Shown piece after piece: positions 1,114-54,053 of a stretch of DNA of 64,000 bases (within the stretch, counting starts at the first letter, position 1; every line of letters begins with the position of its first letter). The stretch covers positions 7,381,375 to 7,445,374 of the forward strand of contig CAIIXF020000005.1 in NCBI GenBank assembly GCA_903813345.2, read 5' to 3'. This DNA comes from Owenia fusiformis. Lineage: Eukaryota > Annelida > Polychaeta > Sabellida > Oweniidae. Position numbers and translations under genes: made by a program. The notes under the pieces were generated by a model. The model was not told the origin of the DNA and did not search any database. It saw only the letters and a list, made by a program, of their open reading frames with translations.

Positions 1114-4100
1114 CTCAATTCTGGCCTCCAGCTCAGGCAGAGGAATCCTCCTACCATAGCAAAGCATCTGGCGTCCAATGTCCTCACAGATTGGTGTGGA
1201 GCCATCTAGCTGGAGCAGCATATTGGTCTTCAACAGGTTCTTGGCTCTCTGTACCTCAAACTCTGTGATGTTGGAGCAAAGTCTCATCCACTCTCCTTGC
1301 ACGTTGAACATCATGTCTTCAATAGTAGATCCTTCACTCACAAAGTACATGCCCCTGGAGGTACATACATATATTCTTCAGCCAATTATTGTATATTTAA
1401 TATGTATTTACAATGGCTTTTCAATTTAACAAGACAAATATATGATAAATGTTTGGTAGATTAGAACAAACTTTAAACATCATCACTATCTACCATAGAG
1501 TGACATCTCAAGTTCTTGTTATAGACAGTTCCTTATGAAAATATCAAATATGCCTACCATAGTCCAGTATCTTTATAACAGGTGTTAAATGACTGGAAGC
1601 TGACTGCTAGGTTCTGTTCTGCACAGTTAGCTGCTAAACGACTTGCAAGATTGGGACCTCCGCCATGAGATCTGTCCCAGCTGCCAATGAGTGTGTTGGC
1701 GACCATGAGGGCGATGTTGTCAGGGTTGGCCCAGCCAGCGCCCTCTACAGCTATTGCTACGTGGGCTAGAGGCATTGAGTCATCTCTTACTCTTATCTAA
1801 GATAAATAAAGAGGAAACAAATGTGAGATTTACACCAGGCTTATCACAGCAGCACCCTACATGTGAAGTCTAGTCAAAGTACCAATTCACCAAAATGTCC
1901 TTATGTTACTAAAAAGTCACCACCTTTTAGTGTAGTGGACCAACATGGTAAAAACTGATTTCTTAAAAAAAATGAAACAAAAGTAGAAGCTGAGAGTAAC
2001 AATGCGGGTTTTAATTTATCCAAAAATTGTAAATGGACAAAGGAGGCTGAACATTACTATTTAAATATTTTGAATAAATATTGGAAAATAAATGTCTACC
2101 TCACTTCCTGTGAATCTACAAGGCTGCATTGTTGGAATCTCATTCTCATAGGTGGCGCTCAAGTTGCCAAAATATTTTTGAGCGAGATTGCTTAGTTCTG
2201 CATGATCAACACCTGCAATGGAGAGTAACAGTCAGTAAGGTTCAAATTACAAAAGAATACACATAACATGTACAAATTACATTTATTCAAAGATTTGAGC
2301 AAACTAACGAGTTATCATTTGATATATTTCTTAATAATCCAAGAATTTTTATTGGATCTTGCACAACACATAAATGGAAGATACAAAGAAGGAATATAGT
2401 AATAAGGCAATAATCATGAAAAATTGACAGCTTTAACAAATGACCTCTTTTGAGTTACACATTTTGGCGAACAATGACTTGCAACCAAATCGTCAATAAT
2501 GATGGTTCAAAAATGGATCCTGGATATTTTGGTGATTTCACTAAGTTCATAAACTTGTACATCACACTTTCTCCAAGCACTTACTGTAGATTGGGTTAAT
2601 TTGGCGCCCGCTTTAATTTGGCGAATTTGGCGAAATTGAAAAATTCGCCAATATAAATCTTCGCCAAAATTTAGAATGAATCCCCGGGAATTATCTAGGG
2701 TATTTCGTCGAGTGTATTTAGGTCACTTCCGGTTTAGTTTTTTTCCAAAAATATGAAAAAAATGTCTCTCATAAATTGGCTCAGAACTGGTCAGTCACTT
2801 ATTAATACTCAGGGAAAAACTAGAAAGGAAAAGTGCAGTATAGTAGCAGCATCAATCGAGGTGCAAAATGTAAAGGATGATCTCACAAAAATGTACAAAC
2901 GTGGTGAATATTGCCAGTGGTCCTCAAAAGAAAAAATGAACATAAAATTCGCAAACAACACGTAAGTTAATTAAAATTTTTTTTGCATATCCGCCAAATT
3001 AAATAGCCGCCAATATGCCAAAAATGGCAAAATCGCCAAATTAAGTAGCCCCAAATTAACCCAATCTACAGTACCTCCAGCTGCAGCAAGCACTGTCCTG
3101 GGGCCTTTATAATGGTTCTGAATATACTCCTGGAGGTCTGTCCGACTGATAGATTGGATGTTTTCAGTGGGTCCAAGGATGGTACGACCAAGAGAGGTGC
3201 CTTGGAAAGCTGTGGCGTGTAAATGATCAAACACAACTTCTTGTAGGTTGGTCTCCACCTCCTGTAACACAGAATAACAATATGAAGTCTTGTAATAGCA
3301 ATATAAGTCTTGCATTTGTAATATAAAGTATTGTAACTGTATTACAAAGTCTCGCATATAATGTATAGTAACATTCTATACTCTTGCAACCGCAACATAT
3401 AGTCTTGCAACTGTAACTAAAGTATTGCTGCTGAATATGAAGTCTTGCGACTACAATTGATATATCATGGATTTGAATTCTTAATACTACAAGAAAGTCT
3501 AACAACAGTTAAACAAGGTCATATAAAATCTAAAAACAGTCATACAAGGTTTGTTAACAGTAATATAAATCTAATAACAGTCATAAATTCTGATTCTAAC
3601 AACAGCAATAACCTGTAAAGTGAAACACCTCTAAAAATGGAACACCTTTGTTAGTGGAACACTTTTCAGAGTCTCAAGACCAACTGACTTAATATTAAAT
3701 GAACCTCAATAAGTGGAACACCTCCCAATAGGAACAGTTTTTAGAGGTACCAAAGGTGTTTCAGTGAGACAGGTTTTACTGTATGTCTTTCAACAGCAAT
3801 ATGAAGTCTTTCAACAGCAATATCAAGTTTTACAATGGTACTATGATTCTAATTTTACAAAGTCCCTCCCTCTTTAAATTCACACAGCTACAGTGTCAAC
3901 CATTTTGAAGAGATTGAGAAAATCTGTGGTAGAATTTCATTAGAAACCATACTGTTAAACCAGCATAATCCTTCAGTCATGCAATACGTTAATGGATCAA
4001 GATGATTAGAAACTCCATCAGATTAAATATAGAGAAATTATGATTCATGTATTCTTAGAAGAACAGCTAACTCTTTTCTATTATTGATTAACACTATATA

Positions 4101-7100
4101 GACTTCAACAAGGATGTAAATAAAGATTTTCACCATGACCTGGATAAAACATTATTTTACCCATTCACAAAACCAAAATTGTTTGCAAAGTGTCATATAA
4201 ATCATTTTCTTGTTGAAAAGGAGTGTCTCAACAAATACTGGCCGTAAATCATTTGCAGTCAGTGGAGCACACTTAAGAATTCTTTGTCAACAGATTCAAA
4301 AAAATTTTGAATTGAATTGAATTACTGTAGATTGAAGATTGATAATTATAATATCATAATATCGTAATTACTTTACCTTAAAAACATCAATTCATAATCG
4401 TAATATTTAAACTTAAACAAATCAGTTCAAAAAAACATTACTGTTGTGTTTACAACTGAGGTTTGAATTATATTGATGAATTCATCTGCAAGGGATCCAC
4501 ATAAATACGAGAGCTCTTTAAACCAATATAAAACAACCACTAATGTAAAGGTATGGTATAGACATATTAGAATTGCGAAATATAACCAACCATGAGTCAT
4601 ACGACAACAGTAAACAGAATAAAATAGTTCACAGGAAACTATCTCATACAGAAAGATATTAGACCATTTCAATTCTTTAATTTTAACATATTTTGCACAT
4701 GTAACTTTACATGTACAAAGAACATGGGTAACAGTCTAGAAAAACACATAAAAGTGCAACTTGATCAAGGAGTGAAAGTAGAAGATCTGAAAAGAATTCC
4801 TGAAGACAAGAAACCTTTACTACAATGGGCCATCCGGACTAATAACACTAATGTTATAGAGACACTCTTGGAGTATGGAGTGATTTTGAACTGTGTCTGG
4901 AGCGATTCAAATGGGGACCTTACGACACCACTGATGTGTTGTATACAATTCAAACGTTGGGATATTTTACATCTGTTGATAAAATGTGGGGCAGATCCAA
5001 ACTTTACCACACATACAGACACCTCAGATGTCCTAAGTGATAACTTTAAAAATGAGGCTATAGAGAAGAAAGTAAAGATTTTTGAGACACCACTCAATGT
5101 GCTCATAAAGACAACAGATGCGCCATCTATGGTGATGGAGTTCATCAATACAGGAGCGAAAGTAAATACAAGAGAACAAGATATTGTGACACCACTGATG
5201 ACAGCAGTATTGTTAAATAAGAGTAACATTGTGTCTGCTCTGCTAAACAAAGGGGCAGATCCAAACCAGAAATCATACAATCCAAAAGTCTTAGGCCTGG
5301 ATATACCACTGAATGTTGCAATAAAGAACACTAAAGATCTGTCCATAATAGAAGAACTAATAGCTCATCGTGTAGATGTTAATGCAAAGGGATGGAATGA
5401 GGATTGTCCTTTAACTGTGGCTTTCAATCATAACAAGGACCTTATACCAATACTCATTCAACATGGAGCAGATCCTGAATCTACCGTTCAAAATGGGAAT
5501 ACACTTCTTCAAGCCTTGTTACACGCTGGTATTCAAAATAAAGACACTTATGACCTCATAAGAAGAGTAATAGAACTCGGCGCTATGGTGAATAATCCAG
5601 GGACTAGTGGAGAAACACCTTTAGCTGTTGCCATTGCCAAGAAAAATACCTGCATTATTGAGGTCTTATTGAAGAACAAAGCTGACCCTAACCAACTGAG
5701 TTACAATCCTAAATTTAGTACACAACAAACACCACTTGATACCATTATCAACATGGCAACAAAATGGAGTTATGATGAATTTGGAATCCTGAAGATTCTA
5801 CTAGCAAATGGTGCATCAGTTAACAGAGCAGGTCAAGGAGGAGACACACCTTTGATTAAAGCTCTGAAAAGAGAGAACACTGCTATTGTTGAAGAGTTAA
5901 TTAAACAAGGAGCAAATGTGAATGAAAATGATAGCAGTGGAACTGTACTCTTCCATGCTATTCAAAATAATGTACACATGGTACGGCCTTTGTTGAAATC
6001 TGGAGCAAATCCGAATCAGAAATCTGGGAGGGATACACCCCTAACTGCACTAATTAAGACAGCGTATCATTCTGATGTCACAACAGAGGTCCGTATGTAT
6101 GCTAAATATGTCATAGATTTGATTGAGTATGGGGCAGATGTTAACACACCAGATTCGTCAGGGTGCACACCTCTTATGCTTACGATCTACAACAAGAACT
6201 CAATATTGCGAAATGTCTTACTAGAGAGAGGTGCCGATCCAAACCTTGTTGGATATAACTCAAGGCTCCCTGGTAATGACACTCCTCTGAATGCTATATT
6301 ACGTGACATTGGCAACAATGATGCAGATGACATGGCAAGAACAATCATACAACATGGGGCAAACCCAAATGCAATAGATCCCAGAGGATACACTCCTTTA
6401 GATCTCGTCATTATATGGGGATTAAGAGCTTCTTCTAAACAAGGATACATCCGTGTAACTTTGTTGCTCATACAAGCTGGTGCTGACATCAATATGAAAT
6501 ATGGAGAGAACAAAGATATAACTGTACTGATGTTTCTAATATTGATGCATGAACAATATTCTCCAAATGAAGCAATTGAGTACTTAGTGGAACATGGAGC
6601 CGACGTGAATGAGGTTAGCAGCACAAGTAATGATGTCTACCAAGCAACATATACTACACCCCTTGATCTAGCCATGAAGAAAAACTACACAAAAATAGTT
6701 GAAATCTTGCTTCAGCATAAGGCTGGTGAACCCGCTTATTATCATGTCAATACATTGGCATATTTTACAAAGAGGTCAATCCGCAATGCCCTGGCTAAGA
6801 GTAAGGCTTTCAATGCTGGGAATGCAGGAGGGACATTACTGACTTATAGAGAAAAAATGGATTTACTTCCACTTCCAAGCGCACTCAAAAAAGAAATATG
6901 ACAGAGAAAATGATTAAATAATTGACTGGAAATGCATGCTATAAATATAATTCAATGTAAAACAGATTCGCTGCACTGCTTTTCCAGTTGAGCAATGATG
7001 TAAAATAACACACATAAAATGGCTGTCCTATATGGACACCCATAAAATGGAGATGAGCATTATTCAGAAAATAACCTGTGTTTTTGTCCGAAAATTGTTG

Positions 7101-10100
7101 TCGATTGGATGAATGGCTGAATTCATATTACAGGCTATTTGGTGATCCCAAAAAGTCCAAGCCAAAAACATAGTCATTTTGATAAGCTCTCTAAGATGAT
7201 TTTAATAATTCAATATTAAACTCAAATATTACCTGCATTTCTCTTAGAATCACACCTCTTTCTCTTTCTATCTCTTGTTCTCTAAGTGTACTGTTTTGTA
7301 AAATATCTGCTAATATGTCCATAGCTGGAAAATGATCACAGAAAATTAAGTCTGGGAATTTCACTGCAAGAAAGTCAATGTATTATTTGGTGACAGTATT
7401 TCATTATATACAGCACTCTCTTCTTTGTAATAGTAGTCAATGGACATTAAAAATGTAGTGAAATATCACTGCCTGTTTCAGGTAACCCTAACCACAAAAC
7501 AAAATGGAAATGACACTTTGAAATTCCTCATATAATAAAACAGTTAAGAGAGATGTGCATGAAATAAATGCATTCCTTTCGTCCAAACAAAAATCAACAA
7601 GGCATCAACATGTAAAATGTCACCATCTGTCATTTGTTACAAACCACCACTGACTGCCAACTGCCATCCACAGGTTACAGGAATTACAGGTGTCAAGTAC
7701 ACCAAACTTTGTCCAAACTCGTGGAACTAGACTCTTAATTTTGAACATTGAAAAAAAACTGTATCTCAGTTCAGAGAAATCGCCAGTATGATCAGTTCCC
7801 TACTCATGAGAGTTAAATATTTGGAAATGATCAAGCATAAAACAATAATTATACCTTTTGGCAGGTCTTGAGATAAGCATTTAGCGTAGTAAACAGTCTG
7901 CTCTCTGGATGTGTAGGCATTTAAATGTGCTCCCATGTTTTCTACTTCAAGTTCTAAGTCTGTTTGTGATCTTTTTGAAGTGCCCTACAAACAAAGAAGT
8001 AATGTGGTTTAAAAACATTAACATGTCATCCAGGGATTTCATTAGCAGCAGGCAACAGGCAATTTCCACTGGTTGTTTGCACAAAATCACCTGTTGTCTT
8101 TAGGGACTTTTCAACTTTTCCATGTTGAATTTATGAATTCCTGTTGTTTTCATTTATTTACCCTGTTGTGATAAATTCTAGTGAAACCCTTGTCATCTGT
8201 TTGTTATGTGCAAGTACTTATTTTACATCTTCTGGCAAAGAATATCAGGCAAAGATAGTAAACAATAGGTGGAGGTAACAATACCTTGAAAGCCATATGT
8301 TCCAGGAAATGGGCAACTCCATTATTTTGGGCATTTTCATAACGACTCCCTGTGTCAATCCATACTCCAACCTACAAAGCGAAGAAATATTGTCAATAAA
8401 TCCTCTTAAATAAACAAACAAGGAAATACATTTATTTTCAAGCTTTATGCAGTCTAATTAAACTGAAGACTTGCTAACACATGATTGTATAAACATTGAA
8501 AATCTTAAAGACCCTCCGACCCTGCCGTATATATAGATCTCAAAGTCATTGGGGTAAACTCCCTCTCAATTTTGACACCACCCTGAAACACCTTTATTCT
8601 ATAGGGAGAGTACATTATAGCTCATTGATCTTGATAAGGCATCTTTATCATAAGGTGTAAATCAATGTACATACCGTTGCAGTAGGTATTCCTGAGTCTT
8701 CTGAAGCAATCCTGACTCCATTCTCTAGTTTAGATGTTTTTGTTTCTGGCACATTTAGTAAGGTCTGTTCAAACGTTGCAGCTTGTGTTGAGCGCCATCT
8801 GTTTAAGCTTACTGTTGCAGCGGGAGCCTGAAAAAATAAAGAATATTAGACACATTTCCAAAATTAAATTAAAAGGACAATTGATGTGACCACGACTTCT
8901 TTGTCATTAAAGAGGGATGGGAACCATGTTTTTAACTGTTGTGGAAATCTTTACATCTATTGTTTTGCATTTCACATCCAACTGTTAATCCAATGAACCA
9001 TTTCAAATGAAACAAAAAGGATCAGGCCCGACATGGCAAGTGATTTTGGACAGCTGTATTTTTATTTTATCCATGGATAAGTCAGGTCTGATCCTTTCAT
9101 TCTGTAAGTCAACATAACTCTAATAAGGACTATAATAAATGCAATACTTTTTGCAGAGATTGAATTACTAGACTGAGATAGTGAAAATGTAAGTCTATCA
9201 AACTTGAAAAAAATAACTAGTTTGGATGTGTAACTAAATAGTTTTACCAAAACAAAATTGATGATGTTTTGATAATGTTGAACTGAAATAACTGCCAGAG
9301 GGCTGAAAAAGCTATTTCAGCATGGTAAAGGTCATTTTGACAAACAGGTGCTCCCTGGGTAATAAGAGTGTCAGTCTGGGTGGGGCGAGAATCAATAAGT
9401 CAATAGGTAGATGAAAAAATTTGGTTTACTATAGATTTTATTTCATTCTTTGCAATGTTTTGTCAATTTTCAACCGGAAGTTCAAAACTAGGTCAAATCT
9501 GGGAAGGTGGTACGCAAGAGACGTATTATGTCAGTCATTGCTAAAGCTCTGGGGCTTTTCCTCCTCTTAGGGAAGCCTGACACTCTTATTACCCAGGGAG
9601 CACCTGTGTTTTGACCATGACCATTGTGATCCTGGCGATGTAAATGATATATGGGAGCAGTACAACTGACTGAAGATCAAAGCAGAACTCTGTTATCTTA
9701 CTTCAAAAAAAACACATGGTTTTCCATTTCCTGTTTGATGTAAATTTCTGATAACTACCCCGAGACCTTAAATTCAAAGTTCTCATTAGAATTTTCGACT
9801 CTGACTGTAGGGAAGTTTCGAAGAACATTCATCAGGTCGATGCCTTCACTAATACCCAAACCTAAATATATACCCAAAACCTAAATCATATGTAGAGGTT
9901 ACATAGCGTAAATAAATGTGCCTGGATTGAACGTGTTTCAAGTATCACACCTTGTCACGGTAAATCAAGTTATCAAATAAAAATCTTTGAAAAAAAAATC
10001 ATGGAAATTTCGCAAGGTCACCAATCTATGGTAAAAATTTAAATATTTCGTAGGTGTTCTACTGAAACATTAACTTCAGGTGGTACCCTAATAAATAATA

Positions 10101-21000: not shown

Positions 21001-24000
21001 TCAATTCCAACATCAATTAAATATGAAATGGAATATTGTAGTTTAGAACCACATGTCCTGAACATTCACTAATAATGAAAGAACCACATGTTCTGACCAT
21101 TCACTAATAATGATATGAAAGAACCACATATTCTGAACATTCAATAATAATGAAAGAACCGCATCCTGAACATTCACTAATAATGAAAGAACCACATGTC
21201 CTGAATGATAAGATAGATAGGGGTGCACCCCCCCCCCCTGGCCAAAAATTCTTTCGAAATCATGCAGTTTTTCACCAAGTGATTTTAGCCATTTTGGGGC
21301 CAAAACCTCACTCACAACTTCTGTTGGCAAAAGCTGGCTACTTGCCTGCTGGTATTAAATATTGACTATATGTATGAAGCAGACATAAACAGTATGAAAT
21401 GATATACATGAGAGTATACAGTATAATATAATAATGGCTTGAAACATGGAAACATGCATATGTTGGATATACTTAGGATAGAATCATAAAACCCAAAATT
21501 ACGCATCAGGATAAACCATTTACAAAATTATGAATGAATTAACATACATCAAAAGTATATATGGAATCAGATTAGGCTACAAACTTCCACATTGGGAAAT
21601 TGAAGTATTAAAATTTTACATAAAATCTCAAGATAGGATAAATCTAGTCAAAAAAGAATGTGAAACAAGAAGGGAATGGGAGGGGACTGAGGACTGTGGG
21701 TGTTACTTCTGTAAAGTAAGACTTGGCCTTGCATAAACGTAAGTGTCCATAAACTATATACATGCACATATCATTAACATTACTATACTGGATCAATCTA
21801 AACCTTAATCAGTTTGAAACTTTAAGCCAGTAACATATAGTATACAGGGTGTCCCGAAAGTATGTCCCCTGGGCAGACATGTACCAATGTCTCCATAGTA
21901 TGTGTCATATATCATTTTAAAGCTTATCCAAAGTTTCATTCATTTTCCAAGTATCATGGTTGTTCCACTCACAAATGGTAAAAGGTTACAGGCATTTAAA
22001 ACTTACTGTTTGGCCAAAAGTATAGTCCATTTCAGTATCCTGGAAACCGGCCTGACCTGAATCTGACCAAAAATATGGGTGCTATTGTCCAAGATAGGAT
22101 GGATATTGAGTTCTAAAAAGAGGAAATTCAGGATAGACACTCCAAGGAAACTCTTCTAGAATGCCTTATGAGGATTACAAAATGCCACATCCCTATTTGA
22201 AGCGTGTTTAAGGTCATATTTTTTTATAGAAAGCATTGCTGCTGTTAACATGGCCTAGGGAGACACACCAACTATTATTTTGGTGTAAAACTGACTTTAA
22301 TTTTGTAACAAATCAATTTTACAAATCAATGTGATTTTGGATGAGCTTTAAAGTGATATATGACACATACTATGTAGACATTGGTATTTGTCTGTCTAGG
22401 GGGGCATACATTTGGGACACCCTGTGCATAATATTCGACTTTGTAATGTTGTACAAGGTTCTTTACATGCTATTAACTAAAACTGCAATTTCTAGTTTGC
22501 TGTATCCATTGAAGTGATTAAAAAGTTGTTGTTTTCATTTACTAGTATCTTTATTAATGCAAAGATTACAAAATTTTCTTCTCAAAACAGTCAGATTCTA
22601 TAGTTGAATGCAATAGGATTTTCAAAAAAAGTCCAAAACCAAAATCAACAGTTTAAAGAACCAATATTAAAAGGCCTGAAGACAGTGTTGTTTCTTTTTC
22701 AGATATATGATATATTAGACGATATGACTGCTGATGATAGAAAACTAGGCACTATGAAACCAACTGTATTGTCCATACAACAAGCTGAAGCTGCTGGAGA
22801 TGCCAAAAAGAAAAATGTTCAGTTTAATTCTTGTGACCATCTCAAGCCTTCTAATACTCAGTAAGTTTTAATTATTAAGTCTTGATTCAAGCCCTTGTGG
22901 CCCCGAGCCAGGGAGGCTATCATTACAGATAGTTACAAATTAAAAAGATTTCAAGAGAAGTCCCATTATCACTAGGCTTTTGTAAAATCTAGTATCTAGA
23001 AATAGCTAATATGCCTTGCCATAATGAACAGAGTACTTTGATTACCATTTCTTTGATTTTGAGGAGCTCCCTAAATCCACAAATTGCTTGGGTGTTTAAT
23101 GATGGATACTCTTCACAATAAAGATTGAACTACAACTGATGTTGAATGTTTATTTGCAGGGGTTACAGAAGTCTTGGCGGACTAGAGCTCTTCTTACATG
23201 GGCTAGACTGTTCAGATCTTGTTCCATTGTTTACGGATCATCAGATCACATTTGAGGCATTTCTGCTCATGGATGAAGATGCTCTCATTAAGGTACATAA
23301 TATCAAATAAAAATCATTTCATCTTTCCAGCATTAAAATAAATGGATGCATGCTGTACTTTTTTGAGAATTCTGCATGAACCTTTTATAATAGTGAAATA
23401 AGTGCAAGATAAATAGAGTACCACATATAGTCGTATAGCCGTGCTTCACTGTTTCATTTTTCTCATGATTAAAAAACAACCTTTTTCCAAATTGTTCTGA
23501 AAAGCATCTGGTTACCTTACACACTAGGCTCTTAGAGTCATTGCACCTTGAAATGTGTTGAATATTCACTTGTATATCTAAAATATTCTGTAGCATGGTT
23601 TGATTAGAATTTAAATAATTGAGACGTTCATTGCAGCTTGGTGTGGAAAAGATGGGTGTACGTAAGAAGATTCTCGATGCCATTCTGGACAGTCACAAAG
23701 CAGAATGGAAACAATCCAGTATTATAAATCCTGGAATGGCGCCTAAGTCAAGTTATAATAGAACTATAACGTAAGTTAGCTGGATGCAGTTTGCTAGAAA
23801 GTTGGCTTATGGTACAACTATAGAAAGCTAAGATTTATTTTTTTTATCACAATATATTCAAGTTGTAAAGTCCTTTTGAAAAGGTAACCTATCTTTTTTG
23901 GATATGCTCAAAGTTTTCAAGAAATTAAAAAATGGAGCAAACATTTTCTGCATGGAAGAACATTCCAAATTTTATTGATTCTTTTCCAGTTGTCAGGATG

Positions 24001-28076: not shown

Positions 28077-28344
28077 TACCAGAATCACTTTGAACACGTA
28101 TATACTTTCTTTGAATGTCTCAAAGATTGTCAGTTGACCTCAGTGATGCGTCAATTAGACAGCAAGCTTACTAAGGACTTTACAACCCCATTTCGTGGAG
28201 AGCAGGGTTTAGTAAATTATATCCACAATTATATTATGTACTTACTAAATTACATTTATAAATGTACAGTACAAAACAGTTCAGAAAAGTACAGTACATG
28301 TAAGTATAAATATACTGTAGGATTATATAATAAAAATCCTTATA

Positions 28345-28624
28345 CAGGGTGTCCCAAAAAATTATACCAAGATAAACACATAATGATTGATGAGTGATTG
28401 AGGAATATTGAAATTTGATCATCTGACAGACAATTTTATTATCATAAATTGAAATTGCATTTTTTGCATTGATTATGATGGATGTAATTTAGATATTGTT
28501 ACAAATTTCTATGAGCTTTAAAAAAATTCCTCATGTAAAAATATCTACTTTTTTCAATGAAGGAAAAAAGAAAAAAAAGAGTTATTCCTGTCTCATTTGG
28601 AAACAATTTGTTTGGGACACCCTG
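28345..28624. mobile_element. 280 bp MITE with CAGGGTGTCCCAAA ends, TA target duplication
   Basis: It begins CAGGGTGTCCCAAAAAATTA and ends TTTGGGACACCCTG, with TA on both sides. The ends are like the 21845-22424 element but the interior differs. It has no ORF. Confidence 0.78.
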
Positions 28625-29217
28625 TATGTAAAGCAGATAGTGTTATCTCTTAGAGGATAAAAAATACATCCCTTGAAATAATTGGATTCTCTAATTATTC
28701 TAAAAGTTATTATGATTTTGTTTGAACATTTAAATATGAACCTTAATTCCAATATCTCATATTGGACATTTTGATATTATACCAGATATCTACATTTCAT
28801 GGGTATCAGATTTGTCTCTTGGTGTTACCCAAATATCACTAAGATAGTGGGATGTTTGGCAATATACATTTGTATCTAACTTGTGTCTAATCATACATGA
28901 AATATACAGTATAACAACAATAAAAGTCATTACTGAGTATTCCTACGATTTCCCTCCATTTTCCTAGATTATAATTGCTGCTCTTTGATTTTTAGTTTTT
29001 GCAATCTTTGGAGTCTCTGCAATCACGTTTTAATAATCATAAACAGGAGTGAAAAATCTTGCATAGTTCTTTTTTATTCTCCCATGCTTGTGATGGACTC
29101 AAACAGTTCATAGGGAACAAATGAATGGCATGTCCCTTGTATGTCTCAAACATTCCATGTTGCGCATATATTGTCACACTATCACAACCTCAAATGTCAG
29201 GTTTCATCATATTGTTG

Positions 29218-51416: not shown

Positions 51417-51515
51417 GAGGGTGTTCGGCGTTTGGCGGTTAATGTTCGGCGTTCGGCGTTCGGCGTCTGTAACAAAATCCAGGTGGTGACATTTTACATG
51501 TTAATGCCTTGTTCA
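51417..51515 (+). repeat. GTTCGGCG / TGACATTTTACATGTT repeat fragment
   Basis: A run of GTTCGGCGTTCGGCGTTCGG leads into CTGTAACAAAATCCAGG and GGTGACATTTTACATGTTAA. Partial relatives are at 52970-53045 and 53436-53512 (inverse), and at 7600-7680 and 61826-61930. Confidence 0.55.
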
Positions 51516-54053
51516 AGTTATTTTGGGCAACCCTATGAACCACCAGACCATCAATGCAACGCCAAACAAGACATGCGTCCAATACGTTTGTAAGAGAAGA
51601 ATGCAAAAATAGTGAATAGTGAGTGAGATATATATTATACTTTGTTTAATCGCAAACACAATAAATGTTAGTATGTCTAGCAGTATGTTAAGGTTTGACA
51701 GAGAAGCAATATTATTTGTATACACAAAAAATAAGTATACACTAAATTAGAAAAATTAGTTTTTTCGGAGAACTGAAGATTTTCTCGATATACTAACTGT
51801 AGTGTTAAATATAGAACTTGAATTCATCGTTTCACCTTATCATGCCCTTCTTTTAACTGTATTTCAGACTTGCGACAAAGAAAGACTTCTACATTAGTTG
51901 ATACATTTTTTCTCAGAGGTCCCCACAAAAGAAATGGCTTGAATTTTAATGTGTAAATAGCAATTCAAATATTGAAGTTAATAGACTTAAATGCGCTTCA
52001 ATTTACAAGGAGTTCCTTGATAATACAGTCCCTTAGCAAATAACGAGTTCAGAATGTAAGTACCATGTAGTCATGTTCCTGCATTTCTATAACCATATAA
52101 AAAGTATCAAAAGACTTTTAGAGGCGGGAGTTAGTTTAATTGATAGAGTATATGTGGAACTATGTAAAGGCCACAGACTGTAACTCGATCTGAACTTTTC
52201 ATTGTGGTAAACCTTTCTATTTAAAATGAATAATAGAAAATATGAATCTGTGCTAAATGAAATATTTTATTTTTCTTGTAGTTGAATATCAAATTCTAGT
52301 TTTGCACGTTTTCTTAAGCAAATATAAAAATTGGCAACATCGTGGTGAATCCGATGTCTTCTCAATCTCCGTCCTTCTGGACATCTGCTATGGAACAGAG
52401 ATTATCACAATGTTCACAGGACAGTTTTTTCTAAAAATTGTCATAATCTGAGAACGATTGATAGAATTAAAATGAATGGCCGCTTTATTCCAACACATTT
52501 TGCATTTACTAAATACATCAACTACTATGTTCAGGCTTTCCCCCATCCTTCTTCAAAGGACTTCATTTATGCTTAAATTCAGAAAAATGTGGAAAGAAGT
52601 GAAATACCCTTGGACCAAGGATGGCTTTCCTCAACACTGCAGTGTCTTGACGAGATTTTAATTCATAATTCCTTTTCAACCCCAAGAACAAATACAATAT
52701 TGGCTCTATTTATTTTCATCATGTCCCTTGCAGGTGACAATTACTGTGATGATATATTTGACCAATTCCCGGGATTATTGTTTGATAACGTTTCGTTTAG
52801 TCCAATCCTTACCATGAGGCCAGTAGGAATTGCTATCCTCTAAATGGGACAAATAAACATATAGGTTTAATTACCGCAAAAGTGTTGCCATGGCCTTTCA
52901 TGGGAGATTAATGGGGAAGTAAGTGCCAGCACCAGAAGAGGTGACATAATTATGGTCTCCAACTTCTTTGTGGATGGTGTTCGGGATCTGTAACAAATGA
53001 CAGTTGGTGACATTTTGCATGTTGCCTTGTTACTGATATTGATAGGGCAGAAACTAATAAGGTAACTCGCTACAAACAAACCAAAGCGATGATGGAATGA
53101 AATTACGAGGGACGGTGTGAAATGTTGAAAAGCATGATAGGGAATGAGAGCAAAAAGTATTGTTTAATCCTGGCAGTTTTCTTAACTTGTTTCTAATTCT
53201 ATCCCTTCTAGCCCCTTAAATCTAAATTGATTCAACTATTCCACATTGGGGAAAAGGAAACATATATATCCAGATAAAGTACATATATTGTATATGCTTG
53301 TTTTTACAATTTCAATTCATAAGTTTTGCATTTTGTGCTTTTGCTAAACATAGATGTCACCAGAGAAAAGTTACATGCAGAATAAAAGTGCAATCTGAGA
53401 ATTAACTTGTTCTGAGAAAAAAAACGACAAAAGAATTTAACATGCAAAATGTTGCCATCTATCATATGTTACAGAGGCCGAACGCCGAAATCCCAGAAGC
53501 AAACGGCGTCACAAAAACTGAAGACCATAATATGTCAACATTGTGGTCATGGTGACATTAAAATCAAATGGTTATTACTAATGCAATGTTAACAATGTTG
53601 TAGTTAAATTCAAGCATGTGCTTTCAAGAGAGCCAATGGTTCAACAAACATGCAAAATGTTATTAAAACGATACACATGCTAATAACTGTGTTATAATTG
53701 GAAATGTGTGAGCGGTTTCTGGAAATTTTAGCACTCCCTTTAAAATAACGATCCATTTAAAAACTGAGCCCCTCTTCCACATCTCATGAAAGCTGGCTAC
53801 AGGCCTGTTTTCATCATTCCAGCAGCAGCTATTAACTATTTCTGTCATACCAAAAATGATTTTGGCAAGATTTTTGTCCCATGGGTAGAGCAATTAAACA
53901 ATATATCTAATTAGACAAGTAGAGGATTAAGTGAATAATGAACACGTTTGTCTAGATTTTAGGGCAAAACATGAATATGGCATTGCTTAAACTTACTCCA
54001 TTGAATATTCTATTGAAATCATAACATTCAATGAGATATAATCCACAATAAAA

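Follow-up and report, generated by a model that had tools for sequence, protein, structure and literature searches.

In a PMPCB-like mitochondrial-protease gene of the annelid Owenia fusiformis, the 5' splice site of intron 6 appears to be interrupted by a short transposable element, and two donors can now be read where the joined flanks hold one. We analyzed a window of 64,000 nucleotides (contig CAIIXF020000005.1, positions 7,381,375 to 7,445,374), and all coordinates below refer to it. The explanation we favor, and consider fairly probable, is that a TA-targeting transposon split the intron 6 donor, that the donor left at the exon end (D0) is still the main one, and that there is some use of a second donor at the far edge of the element (D1) or some skipping of exon 6.

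The host gene lies on the minus strand. Its exons were located with a human PMPCB query and then with exon motifs. We take the gene to be PMPCB from its match to this query and from the HFLEH motif, which is present in the open frame. The search gave exons 2–9 only, with exon 1 outside the located part, so the exon numbers are relative. The eight exons, between 1114 and 8827, form a single open frame, and each is preceded by AG and followed by GT: exons 2–5 (8827-8675, 8371-8285, 7984-7855 and 7324-7233), exon 6 (3075-3261, 187 nt), exon 7 (2100-2212, with the acceptor ccattgcag/GTG, a slash marking the splice junction here and below), and exons 8 and 9 (1796-1558 and 1354-1114). On its own, exon 6 has PDB matches to MPP-beta and complex III core 1 chains, and exons 6–9 match Peptidase_M16_C. 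Positions 1-1113 yielded no match to the C-terminal residues, and that end of the gene presumably lies outside the window. The first-pass annotation had exon 6 joining the next exon in phase, and it does (GGA G/GT GTT), with the frame open across exons 2–9. A pseudogene or partial duplicate, considered as an explanation for donor decay, was rejected because the part of the gene in view, exons 2–9 without its two ends, keeps an open frame and joins in phase. The located part of PMPCB looks intact and the splice site should therefore matter. Two other features were noted around these exons. Inside intron 5 (7232-3262), on the opposite strand, there is a 757-codon stop-to-stop frame (4628-6901, plus strand) with ankyrin-like repeats by eye, and upstream of exon 2, at 9344-9607, there is a short inverted-repeat element with 34-nt arms, 97% complementary, and 196 nt between them.

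The element occupies donor positions +2/+3 of intron 6. On the minus strand, the exon end reads CTGGAG/GTACTGTAG and the other edge of the element reads CTACAG/TAAGTGCTTGG. Joining the flanks with one TA removed gives CTGGAGGTAAGTGCTTGG, that is CTGGAG/GTAAGTGCTTGG (GAG/GTAAGTG). TA positions within GGTAAGT are rare in the window (4 of 10,578, both strands), which makes it improbable that chance gave the joined flanks a good donor. That the element landed on the TA inside a GTAAGT donor, as first proposed from inspection, is thus well supported as the best reading of the sequence. The description of the empty site as a perfect consensus donor holds from −2 to +6; position −3 is a G, so the match is not perfect throughout. 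Whether the donor is said to be split after +1, +2 or +3 is equivalent, owing to the duplicated TA. Intron 6 is 372 nt long without the insertion and 862 nt with it. Because the 21-bp ends are perfect and both TA copies and the old +4 to +6 bases are intact, the insertion probably took place recently, and it may be polymorphic.

The element itself (2584-3071, no strand assigned) is a MITE-like short DNA transposon of 488 bp with perfect 21-bp terminal inverted repeats (TIRs) and no recognized transposase. Its coordinates and its flanking TA dinucleotides are as originally annotated: the ends at 2584-2604 and 3051-3071 are identical as inverted repeats at 21 of 21 positions, and the target-site duplication consists of one TA on the intron side (2582-2583) and one on the exon side (3072-3073), the latter now serving as donor +2/+3. 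The 3-bp alternative for the duplication, TTA versus TAC, is mismatched. With TA counted in, the arms are 26 nt at 96%. The 21-base end, searched with up to three mismatches, is found in the window at the two ends of the element only, and the mean over 100 shuffles was 0.00. G+C content is 36% for the element vs 34% for the window. Several AATTTGGCG-type motifs lie close to the element ends, and five of the six occurrences of AATTTGGCG in the window (both strands) are within the element.

Tc1/mariner-type MITEs have TA target duplications and short terminal repeats. Our element resembles them in its perfect TIRs, TA duplication, size below 500 bp and lack of a recognizable transposase, and differs in that a single full copy is visible and that no autonomous partner or transposase match was found for it. 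From its ends and the TA, the element is best described as a Tc1/mariner-like, TA-targeting cut-and-paste transposon, the superfamily being putative. The label MITE suits a short element with TIRs and TA; the term also implies a high copy number in the genome, and one full copy is seen within these 64 kb. Apart from this copy there is a 12-base end at 4323-4334 (plus strand), an exact match to TA plus the element end, which could be what is left of a related element. Exact matches to these 12 bases number three in the window, the other two being the element's own ends, and the shuffle mean was 0.01. The exact TIR gave no matches in viral contigs and none in prokaryote contigs, where such an element is not expected, and a literature search with 12 letters of the TIR returned matches that look unrelated by title.

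The longest open frame inside the element, 75 codons, is within the chance range (equal or longer in 668 of 2000 shuffles). An internal frame at 2738-2965 (plus strand), which terminates at a GTAAGT, bears what we took to be a faint resemblance to the start of some transposase-type proteins. A Pfam search with the 70-residue internal frame gave no family above the cut-off, the best match being a DUF at E 0.1 and 13 bits vs a cut-off of 27, and of eight pattern-matching stretches in viral contigs none was confirmed by tblastn. On the grounds of chance length, sub-threshold Pfam match and lack of a confirmed relative in viral contigs, we rejected this frame as a transposase fragment. Within the element, 2813-2961 (plus strand) looks exon-like by eye, with AG before it and GTAAGTT (2962-2968) after it; the length of its frame is within chance. 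Elsewhere in the window, inverted repeats with ACAGGGTGTCCC-type ends occur at 21835-22434 (about 600 bp, including an 80-nt arm pair at 86%) and at 28342-28627 (about 290 bp, 20-nt arms). Those at 51452-53489 have TTCGGCGTTCGGCG ends and 53-nt arms at 81%, and a second pair at 52976-53486 has one arm region in common with them. Imperfect repeats rich in AAAATGGCGGCCATTTT-type palindromes cluster at 150-930.

Two donors are present at the split site. D0 (3069-3077, minus strand) reads GAG/GTACTG and takes its +4 to +6 bases from the element. That the terminal repeat supplies the donor from +4 onward had been claimed at the outset; the sequence reads so, and a working donor here is plausible. 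Because the last base of the element on the minus strand is G, its far edge reads CTACA/GTAAGT. This site, D1 (2579-2587, minus strand; ACA/GTAAGT), on which the first-pass annotation was silent, combines that G with TA and the old +4 to +6 bases, so that positions 2584-2579 again spell GTAAGT. Donors were scored with a matrix of human frequencies, which may not suit the host, and by U1 pairing energy. The joined, empty site scores 12.07 bits and −11.8 kcal/mol, and D0 scores 4.99 bits and −6.6 kcal/mol, so that the donor has lost roughly 7 bits and, in U1 pairing, roughly 5 kcal/mol. D1 is slightly above D0, at 6.55 bits and −6.7 kcal/mol with structure ignored. The minus strand has 90 GT or GC sites between 3261 and 2214. 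Of these, D1 has the best matrix score, followed by a site at 3258, right at the beginning of exon 6, and then by D0. Use of D1 adds 490 nt, not a multiple of three, and leads to a stop after 33 codons; skipping of the 187-nt exon 6 is a frameshift.

We compared D0 with the seven other donors of the gene, which were placed by protein continuity, not RNA: ACG/GTATGT, AAG/GTATTG, AAG/GTATAA, CAG/GTAATA, GAG/GTAGAC, ATG/GTAGGC and GAG/GTATGT. Four of the seven (GTATTG, GTATAA, GTAATA, GTAGAC) lack the G at +5. Five have a matrix score above that of D0, and two (GTATTG and GTATAA) fall below it on both measures; GTATTG differs from the GTACTG of D0 by one base. With four donors lacking +5 G and two below D0, D0 looks ordinary, within the apparent range of its gene.

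Pairing of the terminal repeats is predicted to form a strong hairpin whose base holds both D0 and D1. The folding and U1 energies are equilibrium values, with proteins and timing left out. For the element plus its TA copies the folding energy is −140 kcal/mol (z −6.1), a value matched by none of 100 shuffles. In a 566-nt context, 22 of the 23 TIR+TA pairs form at a probability of at least 0.92, the outermost pair at 0.23. Positions +1 to +8 of D0 lie in helices at a probability of at least 0.92; −3 to +2 of D1 are likewise paired, and +3 to +6 are more open. If the hairpin is kept, U1 gains −5.7 kcal/mol on D0 (AGGUA) and −3.2 kcal/mol on D1, where one hairpin pair is opened. The unconstrained co-folds are mutually inconsistent on the U1 site. 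In a 507-nt context the best one places U1 on AGGU of D0, as read from the printed ends of the structure, whereas in the 566-nt context U1 prefers an exonic site, 3106-3104 (about 0.6), or an intronic one, 2556-2553 (about 0.3); D1 reaches no more than 0.20, and no base of D0 exceeds the listing limit of 0.05. On the empty site, by the same calculation, U1 pairs with the donor along AGGUAAGU at 0.93 to 0.99. Given its helical pairing in the 566-nt fold, D0 may be masked after transcription of the second repeat, and U1 may bind D0 before that repeat is made. With a weaker donor, the rival D1 and a strong predicted hairpin all arising at once, the earlier view of the locus as a clean natural experiment on donor strength is not supported.

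Based on these observations, we suggest that a short Tc1/mariner-like element inserted at the TA within the GTAAGT donor of intron 6. The two donors into which it is split, D0 next to the exon and D1 on the distant side of the element, can both be seen in the sequence. D0 would stay the main donor, since its score lies within the range of the gene, it comes first, it keeps the exon at 187 nt, and U1 can pair there while the main repeat hairpin stays closed. Some of the transcripts would probably use D1, with the 490-nt extension and its early stop, or skip exon 6 and shift the frame.

The main rival, which we consider rather unlikely, is that the assembly carries a loss-of-function allele, on a rare or heterozygous haplotype, in which D0 no longer works and frameshifted PMPCB results from D1 use or from skipping of exon 6. 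PMPCB is generally essential. The loss of donor strength, the first rank of D1 among the 90 sites and the truncating or frameshifting outcome of both routes all fit such an allele. Against it, two donors weaker than D0 are apparently in use within PMPCB itself, and exons 2–9 are open.

Another group of alternatives starts from the hairpin. Folding could occur co-transcriptionally and the donor be restored in the RNA, either by SOS-type excision or by a spliceosome reading across the hairpin base; the chance of this is small. The second of these routes is disfavored: U1 placed across the hairpin base on both old donor halves gains −3.9 or −3.4 kcal/mol vs −5.7 for D0 alone, in a model that ignores proteins, and we rejected bridging as the favored state. 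SOS splicing is triggered by paired terminal repeats, and the inverted repeats of this element are pairable in RNA, as the z of −6.1 and the shuffles attest. RTCB-dependent SOS splicing could cut the repeat hairpin from the pre-mRNA and rebuild GTAAGT, or part of it, before normal splicing, which we regard as improbable. A review presents SOS splicing as a metazoan process in which transposons are excised from mRNA and RTCB then ligates the ends (PMC13247085); the substrate described there is mRNA, and action before spliceosomal splicing is our extension. Least probable of all is a two-step spliceosomal removal of the [D1,2] stwintron kind, in which an inner GT-AG intron (3074-2584), starting with GTACTG and ending with CTACAG, leaves before the outer donor is used: complementary near-terminal repeats are known in fungal stwintrons (PMC12403724), but here the product would be CTGGA/GTAAGT, one exon base short and with the frame broken, and we rejected it as a productive route.

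Judged by title or the start of the abstract, the matches listed from the open-licence literature contain no matching case of a MITE or mariner element in a splice donor. Tc1 insertions in C. elegans can be spliced out of RNA, and the elements concerned are in exons or mRNA. Our preferred reading, in which D0 remains the main donor, shares with these cases, and with SOS splicing as outlined in the review (PMC13247085), a genic DNA transposon whose RNA may still give a usable message; the element here is inside a donor, whereas theirs are in exons or mRNA. Introners are transposon-derived introns in which transposon ends and target duplications supply splice-site bases (PMC9860276). The end and target duplication of our DNA transposon likewise provide splice-site bases, but the intron pre-existed and no new one was made: the joined flanks hold the donor, and the acceptor lies about 370 nt past the element. 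In stwintrons an inserted intron splits the donor, and some of these introns have near-terminal repeats that are complementary (PMC12403724). The present donor is also split by an insert whose ends can pair as RNA, and differs in that GT-AG removal of the insert leaves the donor one base out of frame. The locus is thus neither an Introner nor a stwintron by definition, and is related to both in principle. The event is of a recognizable, known kind, and this locus is a fresh and unusually legible instance of it.

Splice donors are natural landing sites for such elements, whose TA target is part of GTAAGT, and an element that ends in G on the transcribed strand automatically rebuilds GTAAGT at its far edge. 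The locus is a compact test of how splicing handles two competing half-strength donors linked through a hairpin; the gene has a housekeeping role, and picking the wrong donor truncates its protein. Its chief value is that the previous, the new and the competing donors are all legible in one sequence.
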